Source: Paraburkholderia youngii
GTDB taxonomy: Bacteria; Pseudomonadota; Gammaproteobacteria; Burkholderiales; Burkholderiaceae
DNA length: 64,000 bases
Assembly: GCF_013366925.1 (NCBI RefSeq)
Contig: NZ_JAALDK010000001.1
Location: 744,001-808,000, forward strand
Direction: 5' to 3'
Below, in pieces: positions 29,049 to 57,020 of the stretch. Position numbers and translations under genes: made by a program. Under the pieces are notes generated by a model, which was not told the origin of the DNA, did not search any database, and saw only the letters and a program-made list of their open reading frames with translations. Numbering within the stretch: position 1 is the first letter of the stretch; each line of letters opens with the position of its first letter.

Positions 29049-30827
29049 ATGAAGGCAGAGAGCGATTACAGCTGTGATGTTCTTGTTATCGGTTCGGGAT
29101 GCTCAGGAATGTCGGCGGCGATTACCGCCGCGCACGAAGGCCTGAAGGTACTAGTCATCGAAAAGGAACCGAAGTTTGGTGGATCGACCGCCCGCTCCGG
29201 CGGCTGGCTGTGGATTCCCAATACGTCGCTGGCGAAGGTCCAGGGCATCTACGAGACGGAGGGCGCGGCGCGCACCTATCTTCAGCACGAGGCCGGGGAT
29301 AGCTTCGACGGCCCCCGAGTCGATGCCTTTATCGAGCACGGTCCTCAGGCGGTTGATTTCTTTACCGCGAAAACGGCCGTTCGCTTCGACATGCCGCTCG
29401 TATTTCCGGACTACCATGCAGAAGCGCCGGGCGGGACGCAAGGCGGACGTTCGATGGTGACTCGCCCATTCGACGGCAGGGAACTTGGCCCGGCCATCAA
29501 GGACCTCGCGCCCGCGCTGCCCGAGCTGACGGTGTTCGGCATGATGCTCGGCTCCGGGAAAGAGATCGTTCACTTCATGCGCGTGACGAAGTCCGTCAAG
29601 TCGGCCTGGTACGTGACCAAGCGTTTGTCCCGTCACTTTGCCGACGTGCTCAAGCATGGCCGGGGCATGACGCTCACGAACGGCAACGCGCTGGCGGGCC
29701 GACTCGCCAAGTCGTTGTTCGACCTGAACGTCCCGTTGTGGCTGAACACGAAAGCGCTGAGCCTGACCACGACGAATGGACGCGTCACGGGCGCGGTGCT
29801 CGATCGGGAGGGCACAAAGATCAACGTCACGGCGAAGCGAGCGGTAGTGCTCGCGAGCGGAGGCTTCCCGTACGATATCGAGCGACGCAAGCAACTGTTC
29901 CCGCACGCCCCGACCGGCAACGAACATTTCTCGCCGTCCCCGACCGGCAATACGGGCGACGGCCTGCGTATGGCGGAAACCGTCGGCGGCCGCGTGACAA
30001 CGACGTTGCCTAACGCCGCAGCGTGGGTTCCTGTATCGACGTTGACACGCAAGGACGGCACGACCGGCATCATGCCGCACTTCATCGACCGCGCGAAACC
30101 GGGGGTCATCTCGGTCTTGCGCGACGGTAAGCGCTTCACGAACGAAGGCAATTCGTATCACGACTTCGTTCAGGCGCTGGTTAAGGCTACCCCGCCGGGC
30201 GAAGAAATCACGGCGCACCTCATATGTGATCACAAGACGCTGCGCACCTATGGGCTGGGTAGCGTTGCGCCATTTCCGATGCCGATCGGACGTTATTTGC
30301 GGGTCGGTTATCTGACCAAGGGTGCGTCGCTCGAGGAACTGGCCGGGAAAATTGGCGTTAATGCGCTGAACCTGAGAGAAACGGTCCGGACCTACAACAC
30401 AGAAGCCAGGCTTGGTCGCGACCCTGTATTCGGAAAAGGCAGCAAGGCATACAACCGATATCAAGGAGATGCGTTGCATGCGCCGAATCCATGTATCGCG
30501 CCGATCGAGCGGGGTCCGTTCTACGCGCTCAAGATCCGAATCGGCGACATCGGAACTTTCGCTGGCCTGAAGACCGATCAATCATGTCGCGTACTGGACA
30601 GCAGCAATTCGCCGATCACCGGTTTGTTCGCCGTGGGCAACGACGCGTGCAGCATCATGGGCGGCAACTATCCGGGGGCAGGCATTACGCTCGGACCGGC
30701 TCTGACGTTCGGCTTCATCGCCGGGAAAGCAATTGCTTCAGGTGTCAACGTCTCCGAATACGGTACCCCCGCGGGGAATGCAATCACGAATAGCAAGCTC
30801 ACGATGGTCTCCCAACAGGCGAGCTAA
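29049..30827 (+). CDS. KstD-like FAD-dependent dehydrogenase 1
   Basis: 592 residues of the fumarate reductase/3-ketosteroid delta1-dehydrogenase flavoprotein family. FAD site: VLVIGSGCSGMSAAITAAHE (about residues 11-30) and GGSTARSGGWLWIPN. C-terminal FAD/substrate segment near residue 537: GGNYPGAGITLGPALTFGF. The Tyr-Pro-Gly-x-Gly there matches the Tyr487/Gly491 pair of Rhodococcus KstD1, and NEGNSYHDFV may hold the Tyr318 equivalent. Such enzymes remove hydrogens next to a ketone on alicyclic rings. Start: ATG 29049 with GGAGA. A terminator follows. A close paralog is at 54412. The substrate is unknown; a steroid is not required. Confidence 0.85.
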   Translation: MKAESDYSCDVLVIGSGCSGMSAAITAAHEGLKVLVIEKEPKFGGSTARSGGWLWIPNTSLAKVQGIYETEGAARTYLQHEAGDSFDGPRVDAFIEHGPQAVDFFTAKTAVRFDMPLVFPDYHAEAPGGTQGGRSMVTRPFDGRELGPAIKDLAPALPELTVFGMMLGSGKEIVHFMRVTKSVKSAWYVTKRLSRHFADVLKHGRGMTLTNGNALAGRLAKSLFDLNVPLWLNTKALSLTTTNGRVTGAVLDREGTKINVTAKRAVVLASGGFPYDIERRKQLFPHAPTGNEHFSPSPTGNTGDGLRMAETVGGRVTTTLPNAAAWVPVSTLTRKDGTTGIMPHFIDRAKPGVISVLRDGKRFTNEGNSYHDFVQALVKATPPGEEITAHLICDHKTLRTYGLGSVAPFPMPIGRYLRVGYLTKGASLEELAGKIGVNALNLRETVRTYNTEARLGRDPVFGKGSKAYNRYQGDALHAPNPCIAPIERGPFYALKIRIGDIGTFAGLKTDQSCRVLDSSNSPITGLFAVGNDACSIMGGNYPGAGITLGPALTFGFIAGKAIASGVNVSEYGTPAGNAITNSKLTMVSQQAS

Positions 30828-30851
30828 CGCTGTTCCGGTATCCATCTGTCT

Positions 30852-30896
30852 GCCGCGGTGGCTGCGCTGTTGAACCGCGTAGCCACCGCGGCTTTT
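30852..30896 (+). terminator. Strong terminator after FAD dehydrogenase 1
   Basis: A perfect 12-bp stem GCCGCGGTGGCT/AGCCACCGCGGC (30852-30863 and 30881-30892) with a 17-nt loop, followed by TTTT. Confidence 0.8.
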
Positions 30897-30930
30897 CGTT
30901 CGGCCGGTATCAGATCGGGCAAGGATCACG

Positions 30931-31776
30931 ATGGCGACGAATCCTGTACTTGAAAACGGCGTGCCGAGGACTGGGAAGCCACAGCGCGGCATCCACGCAA
31001 TGGAGGTCGGCGGTGCGCTGCTGCAAACGATTGCCAACGCCGGCCGGCCCGTCTCGATGCTGGATCTGAGCGTCGCCGCTAACCTGCCGTTGAATCAGGT
31101 GTTCACATATATGGTTAGTCTGGTGCGTACAGGCCTCGTGAGAAAAGATGCGACCACGCACTGCTTCGAGCCTGGACCGCTCGCGCTTCGGCTGGGTTTG
31201 ACCGCGCTGCGGCAGGTTTCCCCGCTTCAGGAGTCGCTAACCCAAGTGAAACAACTCGTGGTCAGCGAACGCCACGCGGTATTCGTTGCTATATGGACCG
31301 ATCATGGGCCGACAGTGATCCAGTACGACGGCCCCGACATGTATCTTCATGTTGGCCTGCATGTCGGGTCCGTGATGTCGGTAGCACACAGCAGTACGGG
31401 ACGGCTCTTTTCCGCATTTCTGCCGAGACAATCGACGCGGCCTATGCTGTTGCGGGAACTGGGCGCGTCGGAAGACGGCATCCAGGAACTCGAACTCGAT
31501 GCCATCCTGGCCGACGTGAGGCGCCAGGGTGTGTCGCGCACCTACGGCTTGCCGATTCCTGAGGTCGACAGTCTGAGCGCCCCGATTTTCGATGCGACAG
31601 GCGCCATCATCCTTGCGGTGACGGTGTTCGGCTCGTCGAGCAGCGTCGACACCTCCGATTACGGCAAGGTGAGAGATCGACTGCTGGAATTTTCGCGCAG
31701 ACTGTCCAGAAGCGGGCCACGCGATAAGGCACCCTTGGCGATTTCGACAGATAGCGCCGAGAGCTGCCGCTATTAG
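30931..31776 (+). CDS. IclR-family transcriptional regulator 5
   Basis: 281 residues: HTH with RGIHAMEVGGALLQTIA, then NQVFTYMVSLVRTGLVRKD, and an effector domain with VGSVMSVAHSSTGRLFSAF. Its recognition helix is nearly that of regulator 4, so the two could compete for the same operators. It lies 100 bp after the FAD dehydrogenase but behind a strong terminator, so it probably has its own promoter. An IS5-type element has landed 50 bp after its stop. Confidence 0.9.
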   Translation: MATNPVLENGVPRTGKPQRGIHAMEVGGALLQTIANAGRPVSMLDLSVAANLPLNQVFTYMVSLVRTGLVRKDATTHCFEPGPLALRLGLTALRQVSPLQESLTQVKQLVVSERHAVFVAIWTDHGPTVIQYDGPDMYLHVGLHVGSVMSVAHSSTGRLFSAFLPRQSTRPMLLRELGASEDGIQELELDAILADVRRQGVSRTYGLPIPEVDSLSAPIFDATGAIILAVTVFGSSSSVDTSDYGKVRDRLLEFSRRLSRSGPRDKAPLAISTDSAESCRY

Positions 31777-31830
31777 TCGAGGCGCGCAGCGCTTGCATGG
31801 AAACGGCGGCGGTCAACAGTCCTCGCCTAG

Positions 31831-33183
31831 CAGGCTGTTGAAAAAGCGCCCCGTCATGACGACCGAAGCTATGTTCAGGAGACTTGCGCGTGCGATATTG
31901 CGCTGAATTAACGGTTCACCGCGCGATCTGCGCGGGGCAGGCGCACGCATGCGGCTCGTCTGGCGCGCAGTCTTCGCGCATTGGCGGCTCATCGCGTCGC
32001 TCCTCGCGGCACCATCCCTGGCATTCGGGCCATGCGGGTCAGATTGCTCGCAACCATCGTCAGCTTGAAGTGCTGGTCGACGCGCTTGAGGCCGCGATAG
32101 ACCGTCTGCCGGATCCGCCCGATGGTTTTGCCCCAGCCGAAATGCTCTTCGATTCGTTTGCGGATGATCTGGCTAGTCCGGTAGCCCGCATGCCGCGAAG
32201 TGCGACCGTCGATGGCGCTGCCGCCCCAACGCTCATCGTTGCGCGCGACATGCGGTGTCACGTTGCGAGCGCGGCAATCGTTCACGAAGTCACGGGTGTC
32301 ATACGCCTTGTCGGCGCCAACTGTCTTCGCATGAGTACCGGCACGCAATCGAGCAATTGCAATGCGCTGGCCCGCTCGGCAAAAACCATCTGCGTGACTA
32401 ACCACGGCGCCGACCACCAGCCCCGAGCGATTCTCCATCAGGATGTGCCCGTGGTAGCACAGGATGGCCGGGCTCTTGTGGCTCTTCTTGAACAATCGCG
32501 CCTCCGGATCAGTAGTCGACTCGTGCGTGGCATTGCTACGTCGCTCGCCTTTCCAGTCGGTGTCGGCGTTGCGGCCACCGCCGGCTGGCGGACCATCGTC
32601 CGGGCCGTCCTTGCGGCGGAAGCTTTTGTGACTGGCCCACGCCTGAATCAGCGTGCCGTCCACCGAGAAATGCTCTCTCGACAGCAAGCCCCGCTTGTCC
32701 GCCGTGCTCATGACTTCGGTGAAGAACGCTTCCACGACTTCATGCTCCAGAAGCCGGTCGCGGTTCTTCGAGAACACCGAGTGGTCCCACACGGCGTCCT
32801 CAATCGCCAGCCCGACAAACCAGCGGAACAGCAGGTTGTAGCGCATCTGCTCCATCAGCATGCGCTCGCTGCGTACGGAGTAGAACACCTGCAACAGCAG
32901 CGCCCGCATCAGCTTCTCAGGCGCAATCGAGGCACGACCGGTGTCCGCGTAGATGACGCTGAACAGCCCGTTGAGCCGTTTCAACGCATCATTCACCAGC
33001 AACCGGATCGGTCGCAACGGGTGATCTGCCGGGACGAAGTCCTCGAGCTTGACCGTCGTGAACAGGGGTTCCTGCATCTCGTCCATTCCGCGCATCGCAT
33101 CCGCTGCCAAAGATCATGAACACGATATCCATAACGCCCGTCCTTCAAACCCCGTTTACACGGGATCCAAATTCAACAGCCTG
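31831..33183. mobile_element. IS5-family insertion sequence with CTAG target duplication
   Basis: 1,353 bp. Terminal inverted repeats CAGGCTGTTGAA (31831-31842 and, reversed, 33172-33183) are perfect over 12 bp. CTAG stands on both sides (31827-31830 and 33184-33187), consistent with a 4-bp target duplication. It holds one minus-strand transposase. It is a different IS5 subgroup from the element at 3053. It sits between genes and breaks nothing visible. Confidence 0.85.
31989..33110 (-). CDS. IS5-family transposase (second subgroup)
   Basis: 373 residues from TTG 33110, or from the ATG at 33095 five codons in. The N-terminal region has LFTTVKLEDFVPADHPLRPI and FYSVRSERMLMEQMRYNLLF. The DDE triad is visible: Asp in HFSVDGTLIQAW, Asp in VGADKAYDTRDF and Glu in KRIEEHFGWGKTIGRIR. 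The reading is intact and fills most of the element, so the IS may be active. Confidence 0.92.
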   Translation of the reverse strand: MAADAMRGMDEMQEPLFTTVKLEDFVPADHPLRPIRLLVNDALKRLNGLFSVIYADTGRASIAPEKLMRALLLQVFYSVRSERMLMEQMRYNLLFRWFVGLAIEDAVWDHSVFSKNRDRLLEHEVVEAFFTEVMSTADKRGLLSREHFSVDGTLIQAWASHKSFRRKDGPDDGPPAGGGRNADTDWKGERRSNATHESTTDPEARLFKKSHKSPAILCYHGHILMENRSGLVVGAVVSHADGFCRAGQRIAIARLRAGTHAKTVGADKAYDTRDFVNDCRARNVTPHVARNDERWGGSAIDGRTSRHAGYRTSQIIRKRIEEHFGWGKTIGRIRQTVYRGLKRVDQHFKLTMVASNLTRMARMPGMVPRGATR

Positions 33184-33248
33184 CTAGGGTTATTCAGGGC
33201 GGGCAGCGCCGGCGGCGTTCGCCTCGCGCGGACGCCGCCGCAGACCGT

Positions 33249-34025
33249 TCAGATAGCGAGGAAACCGCCGTCGACCGCGAGTGTGACGCCCGTCACGTAG
33301 CGCGACATGTCAGACGCGAGGAAGATCGTCGGACCGATAAGGTCTTCCGTCTGCCCCACGCGACCCATCGGAATGCGCGACATGAAAGCCGCCAGGCGCG
33401 TTGGATCTTCACGGGTCGCGGCCGTCATCGGAGTTTCGATGACCCCCGGTGCCAGCGCATTGACGCGTACCCCAAAAGGGGCGAGTTCAGCGGCGAGTGA
33501 CTGGGTGAACATCTTGACTGCTCCTTTCGACGGAGAGTAGCCGAGGCTTGCGCCTTGGCCAGCATAAGCGGCGATCGAAGCCACATTGATGATCACGCCT
33601 TTCGTCGCCTTGATCACACCGAGAAAGGCATGCGTCACGTTGAAGGTGCCCTGGACGTTCACATCCATGACCTTCTTCCAGTTCTTCGCGGCATCAGGGC
33701 TCGAAGTGTTCTCGCGAATGATGATGCCGGCATTGTTGACAAGAAGATCGACCTGACCCACTTCGCTTTGCACTTTATCGGCAAGCGTATGGCACGCGTC
33801 GGCATCCGTCACATCGAGGGGGAAGGCCCACGCGTCGCCGCCTGCTTCACTGATCAGCCCCGCGGTTTCCTGAACGTGCTCAAAGGCGATATCGCTGACG
33901 ATGACTTTCGCTCCGGCCTGCGCGAGACCGACGGCGAGCGCGCGGCCATTGCCTTGCCCGGCGCCGGTGACGAGCGCAAAGCGTCCGTCGAGCAGGCGAG
34001 GCGCTACGGATTGGGGAAACGACAT
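33249..34025 (-). CDS. Short-chain dehydrogenase/reductase, KstD-module type 1
   Basis: 258 residues, classical SDR: cofactor motif TGAGQGNGRA (about residues 19-28), structural NNAG, and the active site Ser (VASIAAY) with Tyr-x-x-x-Lys in GYSPSKGAVK. It ends with the family tail VTLAVDGGF. The ATG at 34025 follows AAGGAC. It is closely similar to the SDR at 56259, which sits directly behind the second KstD-like dehydrogenase. This one probably works with the dehydrogenase at 29049 although an IclR gene and an IS lie between. A keto/hydroxyl conversion on a ring substrate is inferred. Confidence 0.85.
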   Translation of the reverse strand: MSFPQSVAPRLLDGRFALVTGAGQGNGRALAVGLAQAGAKVIVSDIAFEHVQETAGLISEAGGDAWAFPLDVTDADACHTLADKVQSEVGQVDLLVNNAGIIIRENTSSPDAAKNWKKVMDVNVQGTFNVTHAFLGVIKATKGVIINVASIAAYAGQGASLGYSPSKGAVKMFTQSLAAELAPFGVRVNALAPGVIETPMTAATREDPTRLAAFMSRIPMGRVGQTEDLIGPTIFLASDMSRYVTGVTLAVDGGFLAI

Positions 34026-34081
34026 GACTTGTCCTTGTTCGTGAATGGGTGGCCGTGTGGCCGTGGATAAATCGGCAGCTT

Positions 34082-34107
34082 TGCACATATACATGTGTTA
34101 TTGCATC
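34082..34107. promoter_or_regulatory. Candidate operator upstream of SDR 1
   Basis: On the minus strand it reads GATGC - N10 - GTATATGTGC. Its core (GCAATAAC) equals the core of the mhaA site at 6096-6103. It also contains CACAT-ATAC-ATGTG. It lies 57-82 bp before the SDR start. Confidence 0.42.
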
Positions 34108-34496: not shown

Positions 34497-35693
34497 ATGA
34501 AAGTGATTCGCATCGTCGCAGCAATACTCGGAACGTTGACGCTCGCTACTGCCGTGTCGGCGGCAAGCGCGGAGGAGATCAAGGTTGGTTTCAACGGAGA
34601 CCTGTCGGCCTCGCCGTCCGCACAAAGCGGCCAGGCCGCGGTGCTAGGCATGCAGGCCGCGATCGACGATGTCAACGCGGCCGGCGGCGTTCTCGGCAAG
34701 AAGCTCACGCTCGTACAGCGCGACGACGTATCGGCGCCCCCAAAGTCGATCCAGAATATGACAGACCTGATCGACAACGAAGGAGTGGTTGCCGTGTTCG
34801 GGCCGACCAATTCGGGAAATGCGATGGCGTGGAAACATATCGTGGATCAGAAGAAGATTCCGGTCATCGATAACGTTTCTTCCGGAACGGACATCACCAA
34901 GCCGATGAGTCCGGGCGCGGACAACTACATGTTCCGGGTGTCGATGGTGGACCGCGAACAGGTCGCTGCGCTAGTGGCGTACGTGAAGAAGTCCAACGAC
35001 ATCAAAAAGGTCGGCTTCATGTCCGAGACGACTGGCTACGGTCAAGGTGGCCTGCGCGACTTGAACGCGATCGCGGCGGTGCAAGGCATCAAGCCGGTGG
35101 ACACCGAACAGTTCGGTGTCGGCGATACGGACATGACGTCACAGCTGAACAAGCTGAAGGCAGCCGGCGCAGACACGGTGATTATCTGGGCGCAAGGCAC
35201 GCCGATCGCTCAGGTGATGCGTAGCATGGAGAAGATCAACTACTATCCGCGCACGCTCAGTTCGTGGGCTGCGGACAACATTACGTTCTACGATGCCGCC
35301 GGCAAGACGCTTGCGGAAAAGCCGCTATTCCTTCGGACGGTCAGTGAAAACCGAACCCCCGCCCAGGACAAGCTGTTTGCACGGGTCGGTTCGAAACTCA
35401 AAGCGCCCAGTTCGTTTTCCTTCGCACTGCACGGTTATGACTCGGTTCTTGTGCTCGTACAAGCGATCAAGCAGGCGAACAGCACGGACGGTGCAAAGGT
35501 TCGCGCAGCGCTGGAAGACCTGAATTCGCCGGTTCAGGGCCTGCTGAAGACCTACAACAAGCCCTTCAGCAAGGCGAATCATGAGGCGCTGACGGCCAAA
35601 GACCTTGTGTGGGTGCACTGGAAGGACGGCAAGCTGCTTCCGTACACCGACCAGATGACAACGTCGCTTACCGCGGCCGACTACAAGCAGTAA
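34497..35693 (+). CDS. ABC transporter periplasmic binding protein, Liv type
   Basis: 398 residues: Sec signal peptide (cut near SAASA-EE, about residue 24), then a two-lobe Leu/Ile/Val-type receptor fold with the usual opening EIKVGFNGDLSASPSAQSGQ. The family also binds aromatic acids (benzoate, hydroxycinnamates). GGAG precedes the ATG. It is first gene of an operon with LivH-, LivM-LivG- and LivF-type proteins and an EthD protein, so the ligand is probably a catabolic substrate rather than an amino acid. Confidence 0.9.
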   Translation: MKVIRIVAAILGTLTLATAVSAASAEEIKVGFNGDLSASPSAQSGQAAVLGMQAAIDDVNAAGGVLGKKLTLVQRDDVSAPPKSIQNMTDLIDNEGVVAVFGPTNSGNAMAWKHIVDQKKIPVIDNVSSGTDITKPMSPGADNYMFRVSMVDREQVAALVAYVKKSNDIKKVGFMSETTGYGQGGLRDLNAIAAVQGIKPVDTEQFGVGDTDMTSQLNKLKAAGADTVIIWAQGTPIAQVMRSMEKINYYPRTLSSWAADNITFYDAAGKTLAEKPLFLRTVSENRTPAQDKLFARVGSKLKAPSSFSFALHGYDSVLVLVQAIKQANSTDGAKVRAALEDLNSPVQGLLKTYNKPFSKANHEALTAKDLVWVHWKDGKLLPYTDQMTTSLTAADYKQ

Positions 35694-35748: not shown

Positions 35749-36672
35749 ATGATGGAAGCGATTTTCCAGGCGTTGATCAGTGGCCTTGCAGTGGGAGGAG
35801 CATATGCGCTGGTCGCGCTTGGCTTCAGTATCACTTTCACCACGACAAAAACGCTCAACTTCTCCCACGGGGAGTTTGTTTCGTCGGGGGCCTTCATTGG
35901 GATGAGCGCGATGTTGCTGCTGCTCGGCAAGCCCATCACAGCGACGACTTTCGGGGGGCAAGTGCCCGGTGCCACGGCCCAGTTGCTAGCACTTGTCGCA
36001 GCACTCGTCGTCATGGGAGCGCTGGGCTGGTTGCTGTACATCCTCGGCGTGCGGCCGTTTGCGAAACAACCAGGTATGGCGTGGGTAATGAGCACGCTTG
36101 GCTTCGGGGTCGTACTCGACAGCATCGGCCTCGCAATCTGGGGCCCCAAACCGGTGGTCGTACCGTCACCGCTCGGCGACTCTGTGGTCCAAATCTTCGG
36201 AATCGGCGTTCGCCCGCAGGAACTGATGCTGCTCGCCGTCGCAGTCGTCGTGATGATCGTGTTCGACTTCGTGATGCGAAAGACGATGATCGGCAAAGTG
36301 ATGCGCGCGGTGGCCGCCAACGGCAACGTCGCGAATCTGATGGGAATCAACACGAACGCAGTGATGATTGGGGCGTTCGTCGTGAGCTCCGCGCTCGCCG
36401 GCCTGTCCGGATTCCTGCTTGCGCCGATTACACAGGCGTCGTTGTTTATGGGTCTTGCCATCGGATTGAAGGGCTTCTCGGGCGCGATGATCGGTGGCTT
36501 GAGTAATCCTCGCGGATGCGTGATTGGCGGCTTTGCGCTCGGCGTATTCGAATCGACGGTGAATTTGTGGCAAGCGCAGTGGCGGGAGATTGCGGTGTTC
36601 GCGGTCGTGATTCTCGTGCTGTCGTTCAAGCCTACAGGTCTCTTCGGCAGCCGACTGGTGGAGAAGGTATGA
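35749..36672 (+). CDS. ABC importer permease, LivH type
   Basis: 307 residues with about eight membrane helices. It opens with the LivH pattern ISGLAVGGAYALVALGFSIT and has a GLSGFLLAPITQ segment near the EAA-like cytoplasmic loop. GGAG lies before the ATG at 35749. Its stop overlaps the next gene (ATGA). It forms the channel together with the LivM domain of the fused protein downstream. Confidence 0.9.
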   Translation: MMEAIFQALISGLAVGGAYALVALGFSITFTTTKTLNFSHGEFVSSGAFIGMSAMLLLLGKPITATTFGGQVPGATAQLLALVAALVVMGALGWLLYILGVRPFAKQPGMAWVMSTLGFGVVLDSIGLAIWGPKPVVVPSPLGDSVVQIFGIGVRPQELMLLAVAVVVMIVFDFVMRKTMIGKVMRAVAANGNVANLMGINTNAVMIGAFVVSSALAGLSGFLLAPITQASLFMGLAIGLKGFSGAMIGGLSNPRGCVIGGFALGVFESTVNLWQAQWREIAVFAVVILVLSFKPTGLFGSRLVEKV

Positions 36673-38447
36673 GCAAGTACTCCCATTTTCTGGGCGTCGT
36701 CGCGGCCGCAGTGGTGGTTTGCGCGGCAGCGCTGGCGGTCAGAAACGACTACTACCTGCACATCGCGTTCATGATGTGTGTCTACTATTTGTGTGCCGCC
36801 GGCATGAACGTTTTGGTCGGCTTCGCCGGCCAGAAGTCACTGGGGCAGGCAGGACTCTTCGGAGCGGGAGCGTACGCGGTTGCGCTGCTCACGTCGCAGA
36901 CCGGAATCAACCCGTGGCTCGCGATGGCGCTGGCGACAGCGATCGCCGGAATCTGCGGGGTTTTGATCGCGTTACCTTCGTTGCGGGTGAAGGGGCCGTA
37001 CTTGGCCATGGTCACGCTCGCGTTCGGGATCGTCGTCGAACGCCTCGTGAGCGACTGGACGGAGGTTTTCGGCGGAGCGCAGGGCATCTATGGAATTCGT
37101 AGCCCGGAAATCGGCGGGCAGCCTATGTTGCTTTCGCAGTGGGTTTGCGTCGGTGTGGTGTTTTGCGCGATCACCCATCTGCTGTTGCGGAATCTGTTGA
37201 GCGGCCGCTTTGGCCGCGCGTTCCTGTCGCTGCAGGCCGATGAGATCGCATCGGCGTCGGTCGGCGTGCGCGTCTATCGCGGCAAGGTGATCGCATTTGT
37301 CATTGCTGCCGTAACCTGCGGACTCGCGGGCGCGATGGTCGCCCAGCAGAACCAGTACATCAACTCGGATTTTGTGTCGTTCCAGCTGTCGGTCTTCATC
37401 CTGTTGCTCGTGCTATTCGGCGGGGCAGGAACGAAGCTCGGTCCCGTCGTTGGAGCCATCGTTTTGACGTTGCTGGATGCGCTGCTCGCGCGCTGGCCGT
37501 CCGTTCAACATACGCTGTACGGACTGCTACTGCTGTTCGCGCTTTACGCGATGCCCGGCGGGGTTGTAGGTACGCTGGCGAAGTGGTTTGGCAGCAAGAA
37601 GGCCCAGTCCGTGGACGAGCTTCACACGGGCGGCCACGTGATGACCCTCATGCGTAGCGCGCGCACAGGCGGCGGCGACCTGCTCAGCGTGACGAAGCTC
37701 TCCAAGTCGTATGGCGGCGTGAGGCCTGCACAAGATGTTTCGTTCACTATCAAGAAGGGCCACATCCATGCGCTGATTGGTCCGAACGGGGCCGGCAAGA
37801 GCACGATGATCAATATGGTGACCGGTATCGTGCGGCCGGACACCGGTTCAATCCGCTTCAACGGAAAGGAGATCGGCGGCAGTCCTGTTCATGCGATCTG
37901 CTGTCTCGGCATGGGCCGCACTTTCCAGAACTTGCGTCTCTTTTCAGATCTGTCGGTTCTCGACAATGTGATGTTGGGCCGTCATAGCCGCATGAAGAAT
38001 GGTCTGCTCGCGTCGCTGTTCGCCACTCCTCGGGCACGCCGCGAAGAGGAGATAACGCGCCAGCGCGCGCTTGAGTTGCTGGATCTTGTGGACCTCGGTC
38101 ATCTTGCGAGCAGGCCGGCCGGCAGTCTGGCCTACGGCTTGCAGCGGCGAGTGGAGCTTGCCCGCGCACTCGCGACCGAGCCGAAACTGCTGCTGCTCGA
38201 CGAGCCCGCTGCCGGTCTCAATCCGCAAGAGACGACTGAGCTCGGTCAGCTACTGCTTCGCATCGGCAAGTACGGCGTCAGCATCCTGATGGTCGAGCAT
38301 CACATGGATCTCGTGATGTCCATCTCCGATCACGTAATCGTGCTCGACTATGGGGTCAAGATCGCAGAAGGCAAGCCTGTTGACGTCCAGGCCAATCCGC
38401 GCGTGATCGAGGCATACCTCGGCGTCGACGAGGCCGAAGCAGCGTGA
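36669..38447 (+). CDS. Fused LivM permease and LivG ATPase
   Basis: 592 residues that join two usual subunits. Residues 1 to about 300 are a LivM-type permease (MNVLVGFAGQKSLGQAGLFG, then LPSLRVKGPYLAMVTLAFGI). A linker of about 40 residues follows, then a LivG-type ATPase: Walker A GPNGAGKST (about 373), a signature region LAYGLQRRVELARAL and Walker B LLLLDEPAAGLNP. The signature lacks the usual SGGQ core. The ATG at 36669 overlaps the LivH stop. LivM-LivG fusions occur in aromatic-acid importers of this family, and fix subunit ratio at one to one. Confidence 0.92.
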   Translation: MSKYSHFLGVVAAAVVVCAAALAVRNDYYLHIAFMMCVYYLCAAGMNVLVGFAGQKSLGQAGLFGAGAYAVALLTSQTGINPWLAMALATAIAGICGVLIALPSLRVKGPYLAMVTLAFGIVVERLVSDWTEVFGGAQGIYGIRSPEIGGQPMLLSQWVCVGVVFCAITHLLLRNLLSGRFGRAFLSLQADEIASASVGVRVYRGKVIAFVIAAVTCGLAGAMVAQQNQYINSDFVSFQLSVFILLLVLFGGAGTKLGPVVGAIVLTLLDALLARWPSVQHTLYGLLLLFALYAMPGGVVGTLAKWFGSKKAQSVDELHTGGHVMTLMRSARTGGGDLLSVTKLSKSYGGVRPAQDVSFTIKKGHIHALIGPNGAGKSTMINMVTGIVRPDTGSIRFNGKEIGGSPVHAICCLGMGRTFQNLRLFSDLSVLDNVMLGRHSRMKNGLLASLFATPRARREEEITRQRALELLDLVDLGHLASRPAGSLAYGLQRRVELARALATEPKLLLLDEPAAGLNPQETTELGQLLLRIGKYGVSILMVEHHMDLVMSISDHVIVLDYGVKIAEGKPVDVQANPRVIEAYLGVDEAEAA

Positions 38448-38461
38448 TGAAAGGAGGCGGT

Positions 38462-39172
38462 ATGTTGAAAGTCGACTCAGTCAAAGTGTCCTACGGCGCA
38501 ATCGAAGCGGTGAAAGGCGTGAGCCTTGAAGTGCGCGAAGGCGAGGTTGTGACAATCATCGGCGCGAACGGCGCGGGCAAGAGCAGCCTGCTCAAGAGCA
38601 TTGCCGGTTTGCAATCGGTCTCGTCTGGCCGAATCAGCGTGGGCGGCAGGGACTGCACGCAGTTGCCGGCGCATATGCGGTTGGGCTTGGGCATTGCGCT
38701 GTCGCCCGAAGGTCGGGGCGTCTTTCCCGACCAGACCGTCAGGGAGAACTTGCTGCTCGGCGCGTATTCGCGCAAGCAGACGGCAACCGCAACGGAGGCC
38801 GCAATCGAACGTGAGTTCGACCGCTTTCCGCGCCTTCGCGAGCGGCAGAACCAATTGTCGGGAACGCTATCCGGCGGCGAGCAGCAGATGCTCGCGATCT
38901 CGCGCGCGTTGATGAGTCAGCCTCGCCTGCTTCTCTTGGACGAGCCGTCGCTTGGACTCGCTCCATTGGTCATACGCGACATTTTTCAGGCGATTCGCAG
39001 CCTCCGCGAGGACGGACTGACGATTCTGCTCGTCGAGCAGATGGCAAAGCAAGCGCTTGGCGTCGCAGACCGCGCGTATGTACTCGAGGTGGGCAATATC
39101 ACATTGGAGGGTTCCGGATGCGATCTACTCCACGACCCGAAGGTCAAGGCTGCCTATCTTGGCGCCCATTGA
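38462..39172 (+). CDS. ABC importer ATPase, LivF type
   Basis: 236 residues with Walker A GANGAGKSS (about 34-42), signature LSGGEQQMLAISRAL, Walker B LLLLDEPSLGLAP and a switch His replaced by Gln (LLVEQMAKQAL), as in most LivF proteins. I choose the ATG at 38462 behind AAAGGAGG; the earlier ATG at 38447 overlaps the previous stop and would add five residues. It completes the heterodimeric ATPase of the importer. Confidence 0.92.
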   Translation: MLKVDSVKVSYGAIEAVKGVSLEVREGEVVTIIGANGAGKSSLLKSIAGLQSVSSGRISVGGRDCTQLPAHMRLGLGIALSPEGRGVFPDQTVRENLLLGAYSRKQTATATEAAIEREFDRFPRLRERQNQLSGTLSGGEQQMLAISRALMSQPRLLLLDEPSLGLAPLVIRDIFQAIRSLREDGLTILLVEQMAKQALGVADRAYVLEVGNITLEGSGCDLLHDPKVKAAYLGAH

Positions 39173-39215: not shown

Positions 39216-39905
39216 ATGAACATCGTGAGGATGGGATTGATAGCGAAGAAGCCCGAATGGTCGGGCGACGAATTCCGCAAGCATTGGCTCGGCCATCATG
39301 GGCCGCTGGTGAGAAATGCCCCAGGGCTCAGTCAGTATAGGCAGAACCATATCGTGGACCGCGTCCAACGCGGTATCGACTTTACGCGAGACCCCTTGGA
39401 GTATGACGGTTTCTCCCAACTCTGGATTGCCGACGCGCAAAAGCCGTTCGGCGAAGGCGAGTTGCCGCAGAAGATCATTGCCGACGAAAACTACTTTCTG
39501 GGTCGGCTCAACATTCTGACGGTCAAGCAGACGACTGTCGTAGATGTGCCGTCGGACGAACAGCGCGCTCGGCTGAAAAAACGCATGTCGTTGATTCGTC
39601 GCCGCCCCGACCTGTCGGAACAGGAGTTCCTGAACGAGTGGCGAGTTCACGCGGAGTTGGTTCGTGAGATGCCGGGCGTCAAGGGTTATCGGCAGAACGC
39701 AGTGATCCAGCGAGAAGTACAGAAGGGAACAGCTTGCGCGTATAACGAATTGCCAATCGACGGTGTAGTGGAGTTCTGGTTTGAAAGCACCGACACCCTG
39801 CAGGAGGCTTTCGCTTCCGCGGCTGGCGTGAAAACCATGGATCACGCGAAGACGTTCCTTGCGGGCATTACCGCGTTCCTGGTCGAGGAACATCGCATCA
39901 TCTGA
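39216..39905 (+). CDS. EthD-domain protein 3 (tandem repeat)
   Basis: 229 residues, two EthD-like units: the first with LIAKKPEWSGDEFRKHWLG and HHGPLV, the second with MSLIRRRPDLSEQEFLNEWR and HAELV. GGAGG precedes the ATG at 39216, 43 bp after livF, so it is probably the last gene of the importer operon. Linkage with an uptake system argues for an early catabolic step, for example isomerisation or ring hydration, on the imported compound. Reaction unknown. Confidence 0.85.
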   Translation: MNIVRMGLIAKKPEWSGDEFRKHWLGHHGPLVRNAPGLSQYRQNHIVDRVQRGIDFTRDPLEYDGFSQLWIADAQKPFGEGELPQKIIADENYFLGRLNILTVKQTTVVDVPSDEQRARLKKRMSLIRRRPDLSEQEFLNEWRVHAELVREMPGVKGYRQNAVIQREVQKGTACAYNELPIDGVVEFWFESTDTLQEAFASAAGVKTMDHAKTFLAGITAFLVEEHRII

Positions 39906-47274: not shown

Positions 47275-49065
47275 ATGACGACCAATACCCTGCAAAATAG
47301 CGCCACACCGGCGCTCGTACCCGAGGAGCGCCGAAAGCACGCCAGAAAGGCGGCGATTGCCGGATGGATCGGCAGCGCACTCGAATACTACGACTTCTTC
47401 ATTTACGGCACGGTCGCCGCGCTGGTTTTTCCTCGCATCTTTTTTCCGCCCGGTGACATCGCAGCGGCGACGCTCGCGTCGATGGCCACCTTCGGGGTCG
47501 CCTATGCGGCGCGTCCACTGGGCTCGTTCCTGATGGGCCACTATGGGGATCGCGTCGGCAGAAAGGTGGTGATGGTCGGCACCTTGCTGCTGATGGGGCT
47601 CTCGACGTTTCTCGTCGGCTGCTTGCCGAGCTTTCACAGCGCGGGAATCCTCGCGCCGACGCTACTCGTCGTGCTGCGCATCCTGCAAGGCATTTCTGCA
47701 GCCGGCGAGCAGGCCGGTGCGAATTCGATGTCGTTTGAACATGCGCCGGCGCACCGTCGAGGCTACTACACGAGTTGGACGCTGAGCGGAACCCAAGGCG
47801 GCCAGGTGCTCGCGCCAGCCATCGTGCTGCCGCTTGCCGCCCTGCTGCCCGACGATCAGTTGTTGTCGTGGGGCTGGCGTGTACCTTTCTGGCTAAGCGC
47901 ACTCGTCGTAATCGTCGGCTTCATCGTGCGTTCGCGGCTCGAAGAAACGCCGGCTTTCCAGAGCGAAGCGTCGCACGGCGAAGTGCCCCGCGCGCCGCTC
48001 AGAACACTGCTCAGCGGGTATCGCAAAGAACTGCTTCAGGTGTTCTTCGCGGCACTGATTGCATCGATCGGCACGACTTTCGCGGTGTTTTCGTTGTCGT
48101 TCTCGCGCACGCTCACCCAGCACGTCAGTACCTCAACGATGTTGTGGACAGCCGTCATCGCAAATCTGATTGCTGTATTCACGATTCCGTTCTGGGCCAC
48201 GTCGAGTTGGACGCTGAGCGGAACCCAAGGCGGCCAGGTGCTCGCGCCAGCCATCGTGCTGCCGCTTGCCGCCCTGCTGCCCGACGATCAGTTGTTGTCG
48301 TGGGGCTGGCGTGTACCTTTCTGGCTAAGCGCACTCGTCGTAATCGTCGGCTTCATCGTGCGTTCGCGGCTCGAAGAAACGCCGGCTTTCCAGAGCGAAG
48401 CGTCGCACGGCGAAGTGCCCCGCGCGCCGCTCAGAACACTGCTCAGCGGGTATCGCAAAGAACTGCTTCAGGTGTTCTTCGCGGCACTGATTGCATCGAT
48501 CGGCACGACTTTCGCGGTGTTTTCGTTGTCGTTCTCGCGCACGCTCACCCAGCACGTCAGTACCTCAACGATGTTGTGGACAGCCGTCATCGCAAATCTG
48601 ATTGCTGTATTCACGATTCCGTTCTGGGCCACGTTATCGGATCGGATCGGACGTCGGCCGGTGTTCATCACGGGCAACGTATTGTGCGCGATCGGCGCGG
48701 CCTTCTTTTTGTGGTCGATCTCGACTGGCAGTGATGCGTTGGTTCTGGTGACAGGCGTGTTTCTCGGCGGCATCGTGTACAGCATCACCAATGCCGTCTG
48801 GCCCGCGACATATGCCGAGCGTTTCCCGACGCAGGTACGCCTTTCGGGAATGGCGATCGGAACACAGTTCGGCTTCGCGGTTGCCGGATTCGCGCCGCTG
48901 ATCGAGACGGCGTTGATCGGCAAATTCGGCACGGCACCTTGGGTGATGCCGGCTGCCTTCGCGGCGTTGGTGTGTCTCGTGTCGGCCGTCTCCATCTATT
49001 CGATGAGAGAAACTTACAACGTTCCGCTGGAGCAACTGGGGCGCAACGACGTTCGCGATCGCTGA
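47275..49065 (+). CDS. MHS-family MFS transporter with duplicated internal four-helix block
   Basis: 596 residues, whereas metabolite:H+ symporters are about 430-460. The N-terminus is typical (AGWIGSALEYYDFFIYGTVA, then GVAYAARPLGSFLMGHYGDR and GRK). Residues about 166-309 are repeated exactly, in frame, as about 310-453. The repeat unit contains roughly four membrane helices, so 16 instead of 12 are predicted and the topology of the rest would be preserved. The C-terminal half (SDRIGRRPVFITGN) is normal. The transporter may be non-functional or altered. GGAG stands before the ATG at 47275. The substrate may match the SDR/TIM-barrel operon. Confidence 0.85.
   Translation: MTTNTLQNSATPALVPEERRKHARKAAIAGWIGSALEYYDFFIYGTVAALVFPRIFFPPGDIAAATLASMATFGVAYAARPLGSFLMGHYGDRVGRKVVMVGTLLLMGLSTFLVGCLPSFHSAGILAPTLLVVLRILQGISAAGEQAGANSMSFEHAPAHRRGYYTSWTLSGTQGGQVLAPAIVLPLAALLPDDQLLSWGWRVPFWLSALVVIVGFIVRSRLEETPAFQSEASHGEVPRAPLRTLLSGYRKELLQVFFAALIASIGTTFAVFSLSFSRTLTQHVSTSTMLWTAVIANLIAVFTIPFWATSSWTLSGTQGGQVLAPAIVLPLAALLPDDQLLSWGWRVPFWLSALVVIVGFIVRSRLEETPAFQSEASHGEVPRAPLRTLLSGYRKELLQVFFAALIASIGTTFAVFSLSFSRTLTQHVSTSTMLWTAVIANLIAVFTIPFWATLSDRIGRRPVFITGNVLCAIGAAFFLWSISTGSDALVLVTGVFLGGIVYSITNAVWPATYAERFPTQVRLSGMAIGTQFGFAVAGFAPLIETALIGKFGTAPWVMPAAFAALVCLVSAVSIYSMRETYNVPLEQLGRNDVRDR
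47771..48634 (+). repeat. Perfect 2 x 432-bp tandem duplication inside the MHS gene
   Basis: 47771-48202 and 48203-48634 read base for base the same. The unit is 144 codons, so the frame is kept. There is no divergence, which means a very recent event or an assembly artefact. No IS end or repeat of note flanks the junction. Confidence 0.95.
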
Positions 49066-53447: not shown

Positions 53448-54248
53448 CTAGTACGCTCCCCGATATCCCAGTCGTCTGGATATGGTCTCAGCGCAGGTGC
53501 GCACGGCTCGAGCCACCGGGCTGTCCCAATCCGAGTCGACTATCCCCGTGGGTCCAATAATCGTAATGGCCAATGCGATGTTGCTGGAGTAGTCAAATAC
53601 TGGGGCTGAGAAAGAAACGAGACCCGGCGTCGGATGGTTGACGCCGCGCGACAGTTTGCGTCTTTTTGTTTCCTCGATCAACTCTTCGACCACGGCAGCG
53701 TCGAGCGGATGCGCGATATCGGGACCTAGCCGCTTACGATCGTCAACCAGCAGTTTTTCAACGAAGGGGCGTGGCAAGAAGGCCGAGAAGACGCGACCCG
53801 TTGCCGTGTCGACGAGCGACATCACCGTTCCGGTCCGGATGTTTGTGTGGACCGGATAGGCCGAGTCAGCCAGACGGACAATGACTGGACCCATGTTGCC
53901 CCAGACGGAGAGCGCAACGCTATGTGTCGTCTCTTCAGCCAGCACTTCAGCGAATGGCGAAGCCTCGCGAACCGGATTTAACGTTTGCAGGCTGGTCAAC
54001 CCCAACTGGATCGCCATCGGGCCAAGCTGGTAATGGCCGGTAGTCGGATCCTGCGATACGAGTCCGATCTTTCCGAAACTGACCAGATACGGGTGGATTT
54101 TCCCAGAAGGCATGTTTACGGCCTTTACCAGGTCGCGCAGGGCCATAGGACGGGGCTCAGAGGCGAAAACCTTGAGAATTTGACCGCCCACTTCAATGGA
54201 CTGGATGCCACGGCGCTCCCGGTCCGGTTGAGATACGGATTGATCCAC
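53448..54248 (-). CDS. IclR-family transcriptional regulator 6
   Basis: 266 residues. HTH: RGIQSIEVGGQILKVFA, then SGKIHPYLVSFGKIGLVSQD; effector domain: TGTVMSLVDTATGRVFSAFL. Divergent from the second KstD-like dehydrogenase at 54412 with a 163-bp gap that holds a motif-type site, so it very likely controls that dehydrogenase and the SDR behind it. Confidence 0.9.
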   Translation of the reverse strand: MDQSVSQPDRERRGIQSIEVGGQILKVFASEPRPMALRDLVKAVNMPSGKIHPYLVSFGKIGLVSQDPTTGHYQLGPMAIQLGLTSLQTLNPVREASPFAEVLAEETTHSVALSVWGNMGPVIVRLADSAYPVHTNIRTGTVMSLVDTATGRVFSAFLPRPFVEKLLVDDRKRLGPDIAHPLDAAVVEELIEETKRRKLSRGVNHPTPGLVSFSAPVFDYSSNIALAITIIGPTGIVDSDWDSPVARAVRTCAETISRRLGYRGAY

Positions 54249-54281
54249 TTCTGGTTCCTGTTACGGGAGATGATGCCCTCA

Positions 54282-54304
54282 GTATAGCAATAGATATGGT
54301 CTAG
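54282..54304. promoter_or_regulatory. Candidate IclR operator between regulator 6 and FAD dehydrogenase 2
   Basis: GTATAGC - N10 - GTCTAG; the left half-site is good, the right partial. The core begins AATA, as in the mhaA site. It lies 34 bp from the IclR start and about 108 bp from the dehydrogenase start. Confidence 0.42.
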
Positions 54305-54411
54305 CGTGCTTGCGCATGGTTAACACCTAGTTCAAATTTAGCGCGCTAGTATTAATCTAGTGTTCATCCATGGCGAATCGGTTCGCCATAAGGTAATGAA
54401 CGGAGGGATTC

Positions 54412-56163
54412 ATGGCAGCAGGACATGTGCAAGAGTGCGACGTACTTGTCGTCGGCTCGGGCGTCGCCGGAATGTCGGCGGCGATAACGGCGGCAAGCCG
54501 TGGGTTGAAGGTGATCTTGACCGAAAAGGCCAGCTACTATGGCGGGACGACCGCTCGGTCGGGCGGGTGGCTGTGGGTTCCCGGCACCCATTTGGCCAAA
54601 GCCTATGGACATAACGAAGAGCCAGACCAGGCGCTCACCTATATCAGGGATCAAGCTGGCCCCAATTTCGACGAGGCGCGCGTTCGCTCGTTCTTGACCA
54701 ATGGTCCGAAGGCCGTCGAGTTTTTCATGGCGAAGACGGCCGTGCAGTTCGATATGCCGCTGACGTTCCCCGATTACCACGCAGAAGCGCCTGGTGCGGC
54801 ACAGGGAGGCCGCTCCTTTGTGACGCGCCCGTACGACGCACGCGAGCTCGGACCACTGCTCAAGACGCTTGGACCGGTGCTGCCGGAACTGACCGTCTTT
54901 GGTGTCACAATCGGATCGGGCAAGGACATTATCCATTTCATGCGCGTTACGCGCTCAGTCCAGTCGGCGTGGTATGTGACCAAGCGTCTGGCCAAGCACT
55001 TCGCAGAAGTACGGCGTTATGGTCGCGGCATGACGTTAACCAATGGCAATGCGCTTGCCGCCCGTCTGGCCAAGTCCGCTGCCGATCTCGGCGTGGCACT
55101 TTGGCTGTCCGCGCCGGCTGTCGATCTGACGCGTGATGGCGAACGGGTAACTGGCGCGGTCATCGAACGCGGCGGTGAAAAGGTAACGGTCAAGGCGCGA
55201 TGTGGTGTTGTACTCGCGAGTGGCGGCTTCCCGCATAACGTCGAACGCCTGAAGCGTACTTATCCCCATATCAAGGCCGGGCAGAAGCACTTCTCGCCCA
55301 CCCCACAAACCAACGTGGGCGACGGCGCGGCCATGGCGGAAAAGGTCGGCGGCATTTTCGACGACACCTTGCCGAACGCCGCAGCGTGGACGCCGATGTC
55401 GCTGGTGCCTCGCAAAGATGGCTCGACGGGCATCTTCCCGCACTTCATCGATCGTGCGAAGCCGGGCGTTATCGCGGTCGATCAGGATGGTCGACGCTTT
55501 ACGAACGAGGCGAACTCGTACCACGACGTGGTGCAAGCGATGATCAAAGCTTCTGAAGGCAAATCCGAGGCAGCATGCTGGCTGGTGGCAGATCATCGCG
55601 CCATCCGCCGCTACGGTCTTGGCTTTGTCAAACCCTTCCCGCTGCCGCTTGGTAGCCATCTGCGCAACGGGTATCTCAAGAAGGGCGCGAGCATTGCCGA
55701 TCTCGCAGCGCAGATTAATGTCAACGCGGCGGTACTGGAGGGCACGATTCGCCAGTACAACGACGGCGCGCAGTTTGGCCGCGATCCGCAATTCGGCCGG
55801 GGCAGCAAGGCCTATAACCGCTATCAGGGCGATGCACTGCACGGACCCAATCCGTGCGTTGAACCCCTGAAGACGGGACCTTTCTACGCGATCAAGCTCG
55901 TGCCGGGCGATCTCGGTTCGTTCATGGGTATCAAGACCAACGAGCATGGGCAAGTACTTGCATCGCAGGGCTCGCCGATTCCAGGCCTGTATGCAGCGGG
56001 CAACGACGCCGCGAGCATCATGGGTGGTGAATACAACGGCGCTGGTATCACCCTCGGCCCCGGCTTGACGTTTGGCTACGTAGCGGCCAATCACATTGCC
56101 GATGCAAGCGCCGGTCATCTCGACAATGCTGCAATCAAAGGGCGCGTGGCTTTGGTCCAGTGA
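54412..56163 (+). CDS. KstD-like FAD-dependent dehydrogenase 2
   Basis: 583 residues, close paralog of the enzyme at 29049. FAD site VLVVGSGVAGMSAAITAASR and GGTTARSGGWLWVPG; NEANSYHDVV with a candidate catalytic Tyr; C-terminal GGEYNGAGITLGPGLTFGY (about 535-553). Here Asn replaces the Pro of the Tyr-Pro-Gly-x-Gly motif in copy 1, which may signal another substrate or position of desaturation. GGAGG precedes the ATG. The SDR gene follows in the same direction. Two such dehydrogenases in one island would fit two successive dehydrogenations of an oxo-cyclohexane ring. Confidence 0.86.
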   Translation: MAAGHVQECDVLVVGSGVAGMSAAITAASRGLKVILTEKASYYGGTTARSGGWLWVPGTHLAKAYGHNEEPDQALTYIRDQAGPNFDEARVRSFLTNGPKAVEFFMAKTAVQFDMPLTFPDYHAEAPGAAQGGRSFVTRPYDARELGPLLKTLGPVLPELTVFGVTIGSGKDIIHFMRVTRSVQSAWYVTKRLAKHFAEVRRYGRGMTLTNGNALAARLAKSAADLGVALWLSAPAVDLTRDGERVTGAVIERGGEKVTVKARCGVVLASGGFPHNVERLKRTYPHIKAGQKHFSPTPQTNVGDGAAMAEKVGGIFDDTLPNAAAWTPMSLVPRKDGSTGIFPHFIDRAKPGVIAVDQDGRRFTNEANSYHDVVQAMIKASEGKSEAACWLVADHRAIRRYGLGFVKPFPLPLGSHLRNGYLKKGASIADLAAQINVNAAVLEGTIRQYNDGAQFGRDPQFGRGSKAYNRYQGDALHGPNPCVEPLKTGPFYAIKLVPGDLGSFMGIKTNEHGQVLASQGSPIPGLYAAGNDAASIMGGEYNGAGITLGPGLTFGYVAANHIADASAGHLDNAAIKGRVALVQ

Positions 56164-56258
56164 GAGCAGGCCACGAGCATAAGCGCGGCACCGCGCATGT
56201 GTTCGTGGTCTGCCAAAGATTTGCAGCCTTGTTCAAACACCACCGCATGAGATTACCT

Positions 56259-57020
56259 ATGACTATTCCGAACCTCTTGAGCAACAAAAAGGCGTTCATC
56301 ACCGGCGCAGGACAGGGCAACGGCCGCGCCATCGCCATCGGTATGGCGGAAGCTGGCGCGCTCGTTGTCGTGACCGACATGAATGCCGATAATGCGCGTC
56401 AGACCGCGGAACAGATTATGGAGAAAGGCGGTCAAGCCCGACATTATCCGCTTGACGTCACTGACCTTGAGCAATGCCACGCCACGGCAGCAAAGGTCGA
56501 CGGCGAGTTGGGAGCCATTGACATCCTGGTGAACAATGCTGGCATCATCATCCGGGATGGCATCGATAGTCCGAATGCCGCGCAAAATCTCCAGCAGGTC
56601 ATGAAGGTCAATCATGAGGGAACCTTCAACGTCACTTATGCATTTCTGAGCGCACTGCGCAAGACTGCCGGCAGTATCGTAAACGTGGCATCGATTGCGT
56701 CGTTCTCGGGGCAGCCGAACACGCTCGGTTACTCGCCCTCCAAGGGGGCCGTGAAGATGCTGACGCAGTCGCTGGCTGTTGACCTTGCCAACGACGGGAT
56801 ACGCGTCAACGCCATTGCCCCCGGCGTGATCGAGACGCCGATGACTGTATCGACGCGCGCCAATGCGGACAAGCTCGAACGCTTTCTGACGCGCATTCCT
56901 ATGCATCGTGTGGGCAAGCCGGAAGAGCTGGTTGGCGCAGTTCTATTTCTGGCTTCTTCCATGTCGACCTATGTGACAGGTACGACTTTGCCTGTTGATG
57001 GCGGATACCTCGCCATGTAA
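56259..57020 (+). CDS. Short-chain dehydrogenase/reductase, KstD-module type 2
   Basis: 253 residues. Cofactor motif TGAGQGNGRAIAIGMAEAG, NNAGIIIRDG, Ser in VASIASFSG and Tyr-x-x-x-Lys in GYSPSKGAVK. It shares long stretches with the SDR at 33249. I choose the ATG at 56259 because the family start follows; an ATG at 56247 is also possible. It is 95 bp downstream of the dehydrogenase, in one unit. It probably interconverts a ring hydroxyl and the ketone needed by the dehydrogenase. Confidence 0.87.
   Translation: MTIPNLLSNKKAFITGAGQGNGRAIAIGMAEAGALVVVTDMNADNARQTAEQIMEKGGQARHYPLDVTDLEQCHATAAKVDGELGAIDILVNNAGIIIRDGIDSPNAAQNLQQVMKVNHEGTFNVTYAFLSALRKTAGSIVNVASIASFSGQPNTLGYSPSKGAVKMLTQSLAVDLANDGIRVNAIAPGVIETPMTVSTRANADKLERFLTRIPMHRVGKPEELVGAVLFLASSMSTYVTGTTLPVDGGYLAM

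Follow-up and report, generated by a model that had tools for sequence, protein, structure and literature searches.

The question raised by this stretch of the Paraburkholderia youngii genome is what two flavoproteins of the KstD type contribute in the neighbourhood of genes for homogentisate cleavage. The window, by which we mean the whole stretch of 64,000 nucleotides analysed here (G000:C1:744001-808000, in a 9.49-Mb genome), encodes two KstD-like FAD desaturases, KstDa and KstDb, each with a short-chain dehydrogenase (SDRa and SDRb), as well as two sets of homogentisate genes (Table 1). An earlier, sequence-only reading had proposed that both modules act together and dehydrogenate an oxo-cyclohexylacetate twice, the product being the hydroxyphenylacetate substrate of the monooxygenase MhaAB. 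We found that KstDa and SDRa belong to a conserved unit of their own and, with a probability of roughly 0.5, this unit is an aromatising entry cassette through which an imported oxygenated alicyclic acid would feed homogentisate-type cleavage. The gene partnership of the cassette is fairly well supported; aromatisation, substrate class and entry point are what we infer from it and from protein comparisons.

Relatives of KstDa were drawn from 80 genome loci, three plasmids and whole genomes and, judged by KstDa, the closest named relatives are Paraburkholderia, Burkholderia, Caballeronia and Pararobbsia. Partners at each locus were counted by tblastn, because codon-score gene calling misassigned the strand of several open reading frames (ORFs) in high-GC loci. 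Outside the window, the KstDa clade was sampled with 20 Burkholderiales loci, which include six from Achromobacter, two near-copies that were kept in the counts (L041 and L046) and two loci on one contig (L048 and L050). An SDR was present in 15 of them, the permease of a LIV-type ABC importer in 13, the EthD protein EthD39 in 9, a metallo-beta-lactamase (MBL)-fold hydrolase in 8, fumarylacetoacetase (FAH) in 5, an old yellow enzyme (OYE) in 4, the homogentisate dioxygenase HmgA in 3 and a glyoxalase-like vicinal oxygen chelate (VOC) protein in 2. Each of these counts was 0/20 at control loci, 18 of which hold a KstD-like protein of another clade (at least 38%) and 2 a more distant FAD_binding_2 protein. 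The partnership of KstDa-SDRa with importer, EthD39 and MBL is clade-specific, and five loci outside the window also hold FAH together with HmgA or VOC.

The gene order at positions 19365-39905 of the window, fah-hmgA-mbl2-IclR-IclR-MFS-MFS-EthD-KstDa-IclR-SDRa-LIV-EthD39 (MFS, major facilitator superfamily), recurs in L041 and L046, the differences being a transposase in the window and a porin in the other two; maiA is visible in L041, and the L046 stretch starts within fah. In L050, maiA-fah-hmgA-mbl2 immediately adjoins KstDa. Compact operons were found in two genomes, with an IclR gene beside KstD-SDR-MBL-VOC-FAH-EthD in G050 (L044) and beside KstD-SDR-MBL-EthD-VOC-FAH in G258 (L166). The conserved gene order of these five loci bears out the earlier proposal that a KstD-SDR module is linked to homogentisate-type cleavage genes. 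The mhaA-mhaB-hmgA-fah-maiA operon that had been seen near the modules is indeed present as set 1, but the conserved neighbour of KstDa is set 2 (18721-23170), and the mhaAB operon was rejected as the conserved partner. The NCBIfam equivalog cut-offs are exceeded by HmgA and FAH from either set and by the MaiA from set 1, and mbl2 is 94-97% identical in the Burkholderia, Caballeronia and Pararobbsia KstDa loci and 69-80% identical in four others.

Across a set of 399 genomes of the order, nine carry a member of the KstD clade (E<=1e-215), G171 and G209 being of one genus and G348 holding the KstDb type. MBL is present in 9/9 of these genomes and in 65/399 overall (hypergeometric 3e-7 without our own genome), and it adjoins KstD in 3 of the 8 others (G050, G258 and G384). 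It was also found in 18/18 genomes tested behind contig loci, these 18 having been chosen among the 80 loci. Relatives of EthD39 and SDRa are absent from 14 of the 15 tested MBL genomes that lack a KstD-clade match. Of the families tested at 69 further genome loci, nearly all from Bradyrhizobium, only two came up repeatedly, IclR (65) and SDR (9).

Concerning the type of enzyme, KstDa and KstDb match FAD_binding_2 over the full length of the domain (Pfam) and are 62.9% identical over 563 aa, and SDRa and SDRb are 58.5% identical, so that the two paralogous pairs recognised from the sequence exist. Catalytic positions were taken from an alignment with 4c3x, whose chain numbers we take to be the native ones plus 20; the three Tyr do land on Tyr. 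The counterparts of Tyr119, Tyr318, Tyr487 and Gly491 of KstD1 are Y122, Y370, Y541 and G545 in KstDa, are the same in KstDb, and are retained as Tyr/Tyr/Tyr/Gly in 34/34 clade rows of the tree alignment. The roles of these four residues are given in a section of PMC5348764, and a table there lists Gly/Ala at the Ser52 site of the R. ruber KstDs. This site is Trp in 34/34 clade rows, as it is in some proteins of other clades, and such a residue should narrow the pocket relative to KstD. Both proteins exceed the cut-off of 747 for the PRK06134 subfamily (NF004789; 776.8 and 753.8 bits), a model that names no function. Among models that do name a reaction, ChcC2 scores top for both (NF053677, 4-oxocyclohex-2-ene-1-carboxylate 5-dehydrogenase; 574.8 and 574.9 bits, below its cut-off of 900), and six clade members reach 571-600 with it. 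ChcC1 (NF053676, 4-oxocyclohexanecarboxylate 2-dehydrogenase) gives 336 and 325 bits (cut-off 1000), and the steroid KstD models give 455 and 468 (PRK12844, cut-off 789), 444 and 450 (PRK07843, 788) and 383 and 373 (PRK12845, 793). Both proteins therefore stay below all the KstD and ChcC equivalog thresholds.

These data bear directly on an explanation in which KstDa and KstDb are delta-1-dehydrogenases of steroids or other polycyclic compounds that share their neighbourhood by chance. The nearest solved structure by sequence, 7p18, is a 3-oxosteroid 1-dehydrogenase (350 and 294 bits), and the catalytic residues match those of KstD1. However, the Trp at the Ser52 site sets the 34 clade rows apart from KstD1, every KstD cut-off is missed, and partners such as SDR, a small-acid importer, EthD39, MBL and the ring-cleavage genes are conserved where the control loci have none. 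Steroid catabolism was rejected because of the missed cut-offs and because no other steroid gene turned up in the family scans of the window, in which no search was aimed at such genes. We regard this explanation as highly doubtful.

A known system close to the cassette is the chc cluster of Sinomonas cyclohexanicum, in which a P450, a dehydrogenase and two desaturases in series lead to 4-hydroxybenzoate (as outlined in a passage of PMC9795900, citing Yamamoto 2021). A ring alcohol dehydrogenase and a KstD-like desaturase that works next to the ketone of the ring are what it would have in common with the cassette. It differs in that the cassette has homogentisate-type partners and no ChcC1-like partner and, unlike in the chc cluster, no P450 came up when the window genes, apart from some small ORFs, were compared with Pfam. 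For the two dehydrogenations suggested previously, no pair of desaturases resembling ChcC1 and ChcC2 was seen, both KstDs scoring far higher with ChcC2 than with ChcC1.

For the aromatising cassette we propose the following course. An oxygenated alicyclic acid would enter through the LIV-type importer, SDRa would convert a ring alcohol to the ketone, and KstDa would remove two hydrogens beside this ketone by the KstD mechanism, for which the residues are in place and the activity is predicted. The dienone formed would then turn into a phenol or hydroquinone. Each cassette has a single desaturase, which resembles the second-step model, so the substrate would have to be a cyclohexenone from the outset or go through this enzyme twice. 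Further actors along the route would be EthD39 and the MBL-fold hydrolase, and the product would be opened by HmgA, or by a route that contains the VOC protein, and then split by FAH (together with MaiA) as homogentisate is; here the linkage of the genes is observed and the flux is presumed.

Where the cassette would join the known pathway was approached through mhaA. In P. putida U and P. xenovorans LB400, 3-hydroxyphenylacetate is degraded by the mhaAB-hmgABC route, and MhaAB of P. putida U forms homogentisate from it (PMC3053370). The cassette resembles this system in HmgA, FAH, MaiA and the MBL common to many mhaA operons, and differs by having KstD-SDR-EthD where MhaAB would be. MBL occupies 69 places in the order; mhaA is found at 23 of the 33 examined ones that have no adjoining KstD, versus 0/8 KstD+MBL loci outside the window (Fisher 5e-4). 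MhaA-like proteins were searched at E<=1e-80 in 17 KstD-clade genomes. In Pararobbsia silviterrae (G436), mbl2 and KstDa are followed about 14 kb on by SDRa, LIV, EthD39 and a MaiA-like glutathione S-transferase (GST), all within about 30 kb on one contig; two HmgA genes lie elsewhere in this genome, and no MhaA-like match was obtained at that threshold. In G171 and G209 the MhaA relatives are 40% paralogues only. From these data, KstD-SDR seems to take the place of MhaAB in feeding the same parts. Identity between the G050 VOC and the VOCs of mhaA loci is 67-72%, and the KstD-linked MBLs are scattered among the mhaA-linked ones in the tree, not forming one clade and forcing at least three changes, so KstD and mhaA operons reuse the same parts. 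Since KstD-SDR occupies the gene neighbourhood that MhaAB holds in sister operons, we lean towards a product at the level of homogentisate over 3-hydroxyphenylacetate. A more specific form of this idea is tentative and, on balance, rather unlikely: KstD-SDR(-EthD) might be a gateway that needs no monooxygenase. Its substrate would be a natural six-ring C2-acid, dioxygenated from the start, or the corresponding lactone, and oxidation plus desaturation would yield homogentisate directly, with KstD-SDR(-EthD) standing in for MhaAB in the same MBL/ring-cleavage/FAH operon.

A number of observations weigh against the proposed cassette or its entry point. FAH together with HmgA or VOC was found in only 5 of the 20 Burkholderiales loci in the examined stretch, in 0/6 Achromobacter loci among them and in 0/69 further genome loci. 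HmgA above cut-off is present in 5/9 KstD-clade genomes (65/399 in the order) and VOC in 4/9 (43/399); G171 lacks both, and G160 has a weak HmgA-like match only. Relatives of SDRa and EthD39 are not universal either (13/17 and 9/17 KstD-clade genomes tested), and in G351, the exception among the MBL genomes above, both occur with no KstD adjoining. In the window itself, hmgA2 has an in-frame TAG near its start that is preceded by recognisable HmgA sequence; hmgA1 is open, and so is the third copy of hmgA that the contig carries elsewhere. As to the entry point, the window has mhaA 14 kb from mbl2, and with its inclusion the KstD+MBL loci with mhaA number 1/9 (Fisher 0.002). Among 17 KstD-clade genomes tested, 14 encode an MhaA of 54% identity or more somewhere, and G050, G258, G175 and G384 own mhaA elsewhere in the genome. 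A separate mhaA-MBL-hmgA operon is present in the Achromobacter and Bradyrhizobium genomes tested, two of each, and 3-hydroxyphenylacetate as product would fit this equally well. No operator palindrome common to the KstD and mhaA promoters was found, only scattered ones, and a shared IclR operator was not upheld.

The entry point proposed by the sequence-only reading is a sub-case of aromatisation in which an oxo-cyclohexylacetate would be turned into 3-hydroxyphenylacetate, from which MhaAB then makes homogentisate. The mhaAB-hmgA-fah-maiA operon lies 18 kb from KstDa in the window, and the presence of MhaA in 14/17 genomes, those of Achromobacter and Bradyrhizobium included, also speaks for it. 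The claim was nevertheless weakened by the missing mhaA at KstD+MBL loci and by the Pararobbsia, G171 and G209 genomes, and also the operons of G050 and G258 run from KstD-SDR to VOC-FAH with no monooxygenase, so that we consider MhaAB as the next step unlikely.

The same two operons contain MBL and FAH and no HmgA, which would also suit a route without aromatisation, in which KstD and SDR form a cyclic 1,3-diketone and hydrolases of the MBL and FAH type cleave its C-C bond. FAH does hydrolyse a 1,3-diketone acid. Yet the three FAHs tested, that of G050 included (496 bits), score 496-617 bits where 375 are required for a fumarylacetoacetase, hmgA accompanies KstDa in L041, L046 and L050, and MBL also accompanies the aromatic hydroxylase MhaA. 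This makes the diketone route improbable compared with the aromatising cassette.

Several observations concern the VOC, MBL and HmgA-like proteins. The VOC protein has 178 aa in G050 (L044:13738-14274), with 9u42 as PDB relative, and it carries a His/Glu/His/Glu motif that resembles that of glyoxalase I. It also stands with MBL and mhaA (and with fah in 4/7) in clusters of G175, G221, G298, G422, G072, G142 and G333, genomes in which no hmgA match was found. Among the MBL-mhaA clusters examined, 7 contain VOC in a genome devoid of hmgA, and 6 contain hmgA and no VOC. The VOC protein is possibly another way of opening the ring. A plain replacement of HmgA was dropped as an explanation, as 9 of the 399 genomes have both proteins versus 7.3 expected, and G328 has their genes as neighbours at a distance of about 1.5 kb. 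The MBL-fold protein (13198-14157, 22214-23170 type) is often a partner of mhaA, in the 23/33 loci as well as in the Achromobacter and Bradyrhizobium genomes tested, and our genome has a further mhaA-MBL pair on C2 (L184). In L175 and L191 (G160 and G099), mhaA is closely followed by the gene of an HmgA-like protein that has diverged strongly and scores 92-93 bits with TIGR01015.

In the tree of 58 rows, in which 10 of the 69 Bradyrhizobium-type loci are represented, KstDa groups with proteins from Achromobacter, Bradyrhizobium and other Burkholderiales, whereas KstDb is a separate branch (3 rows, 100/100) inside the 34-row clade (100/99). By this tree, KstDb/SDRb is an old sister lineage of KstDa/SDRa. 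KstDb and SDRb adjoin on one strand, and the lineage (L043 and L169) keeps IclR-KstDb-SDRb-MFS; of the partners sought, only SDR was seen at these two loci, and no homogentisate partner. A joint action of the two modules is not supported by this. KstDb-SDRb, which has a separate MFS carrier, probably carries out the chemistry proposed for KstDa-SDRa on a different substrate. The start of SDRb at 56259 used before is allowed, and 56160 equally so. As to KstDa and SDRa, both proteins are real, but their genes converge from opposite strands, are separated by an IclR gene and a transposase gene, and do not form an operon as the earlier pairing might imply. Transporters do stand beside the modules as described, with the qualification that the conserved one of KstDa is the LIV importer and that the MFS carrier goes with KstDb. 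EthD proteins are likewise found near the modules, a third one (Pfam) at 15056 in addition to those at 28215 and 39216.

Table 1. Features of the window, with position, strand and basis of assignment.
Feature	Position	Strand	Basis
mhaA-like FAD monooxygenase (set 1)	6106..7821	+	PRK08132 above cut-off
mhaB-like small protein, DUF2783	7818..8054	+	Pfam
hmgA1, intact homogentisate dioxygenase	8051..9418	+	TIGR01015 677 bits
fah1	9370..10722	+	TIGR01266 617 bits; PDB fumarylacetoacetases
maiA1	10647..11387	+	TIGR01262 272 vs cut-off 171 bits
mbl1, MBL-fold hydrolase	13198..14157	+	Pfam; groups with MBLs of mhaA loci in tree
maiA2, maleylacetoacetate isomerase-like GST (set 2)	18721..19452	-	Pfam GST; 56% identical to maiA1
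fah2, fumarylacetoacetase	19365..20777	-	TIGR01266 581 vs cut-off 375 bits
hmgA2, homogentisate dioxygenase	20732..21853	-	TIGR01015 557 vs cut-off 511 bits; 5' part severed by in-frame TAG
mbl2, MBL-fold hydrolase	22214..23170	-	Pfam; PDB relative 8d2z 438 bits; conservation
IclR regulator, conserved block	23473..24330	-	Pfam; synteny
IclR regulator, conserved block	24307..25215	+	Pfam; synteny
MFS carrier, conserved block	25236..26411	-	Pfam; synteny
MFS carrier, conserved block	26733..28076	+	Pfam; synteny
ethD28, EthD-domain protein	28215..28985	-	Pfam EthD; synteny
KstDa, KstD/ChcC-like FAD desaturase	29049..30827	+	592 aa; Pfam, NCBIfam, PDB, catalytic residues
IclR regulator	30931..31776	+	Pfam; synteny
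Transposase gene between IclR and SDRa	31989..33110	-	Pfam DUF772, DDE_Tnp_1; both flanking genes open
SDRa, short-chain dehydrogenase	33249..34094	-	Pfam; partner in 15/20 KstDa loci
LIV-type ABC importer, binding protein	34497..35693	+	Pfam Peripla_BP_6
LIV permease	35749..36672	+	Pfam BPD_transp_2
LIV permease fused to ATPase	36516..38447	+	Pfam
LIV ATPase	38444..39172	+	Pfam
ethD39, EthD protein kept with KstDa	39216..39905	+	Pfam EthD, distant MmlI match; 9/20 KstDa loci, 0/20 controls
IclR, divergent from KstDb	53448..54248	-	Pfam; arrangement repeated in L043, L169
KstDb, sister-lineage desaturase	54412..56163	+	583 aa; Pfam, NCBIfam, PDB, tree
SDRb, short-chain dehydrogenase	56160..57020	+	Pfam; start 56259 equally possible
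MFS carrier kept with KstDb-SDRb	57213..58562	+	Pfam; 68% and 66% identical in L043, L169

The name mhaA in Table 1 rests on the position of the gene before DUF2783-hmgA and on the mhaAB description in PMC3053370. ORFs at 31884 and 34045 were discarded on Pfam and codon scores. By its domains, the transposase is presumably IS5-like. The shikimate-transporter-like MFS gene at 47275-49065 contains an exact in-frame tandem duplication of 432 bp (47771-48202 and 48203-48634), which is either a recent event or an assembly artefact. Two porin genes (40058-41218 and 58716-59876) encode identical proteins (100% over 386 aa); their DNA is 96-100% identical per 100 bases, and the similarity stops near the gene ends. 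Among the relatives collected, L066, from a record titled Frankia sp. RB7, has a KstDa locus that is 71% identical like the Bradyrhizobium ones, and the record is probably mislabelled or contaminated.

That KstD-like desaturases can aromatise alicyclic acids is known already from the conversion of cyclohexanecarboxylate to 4-hydroxybenzoate. A route in which KstD-SDR feeds homogentisate was not found described in the open-licence literature, in line with the earlier statement that no island with this full set was known. Two units that lay mixed in the window are now separated, the conserved KstDa-hmgA unit and the neighbouring mhaAB unit. If the proposed role is true, a conserved cassette leading into the homogentisate branch would be an added peripheral route, a part of the function-less PRK06134 group would gain a function, and the cassette would hint that soil contains alicyclic C2-acids of a class that has so far gone unrecognised.

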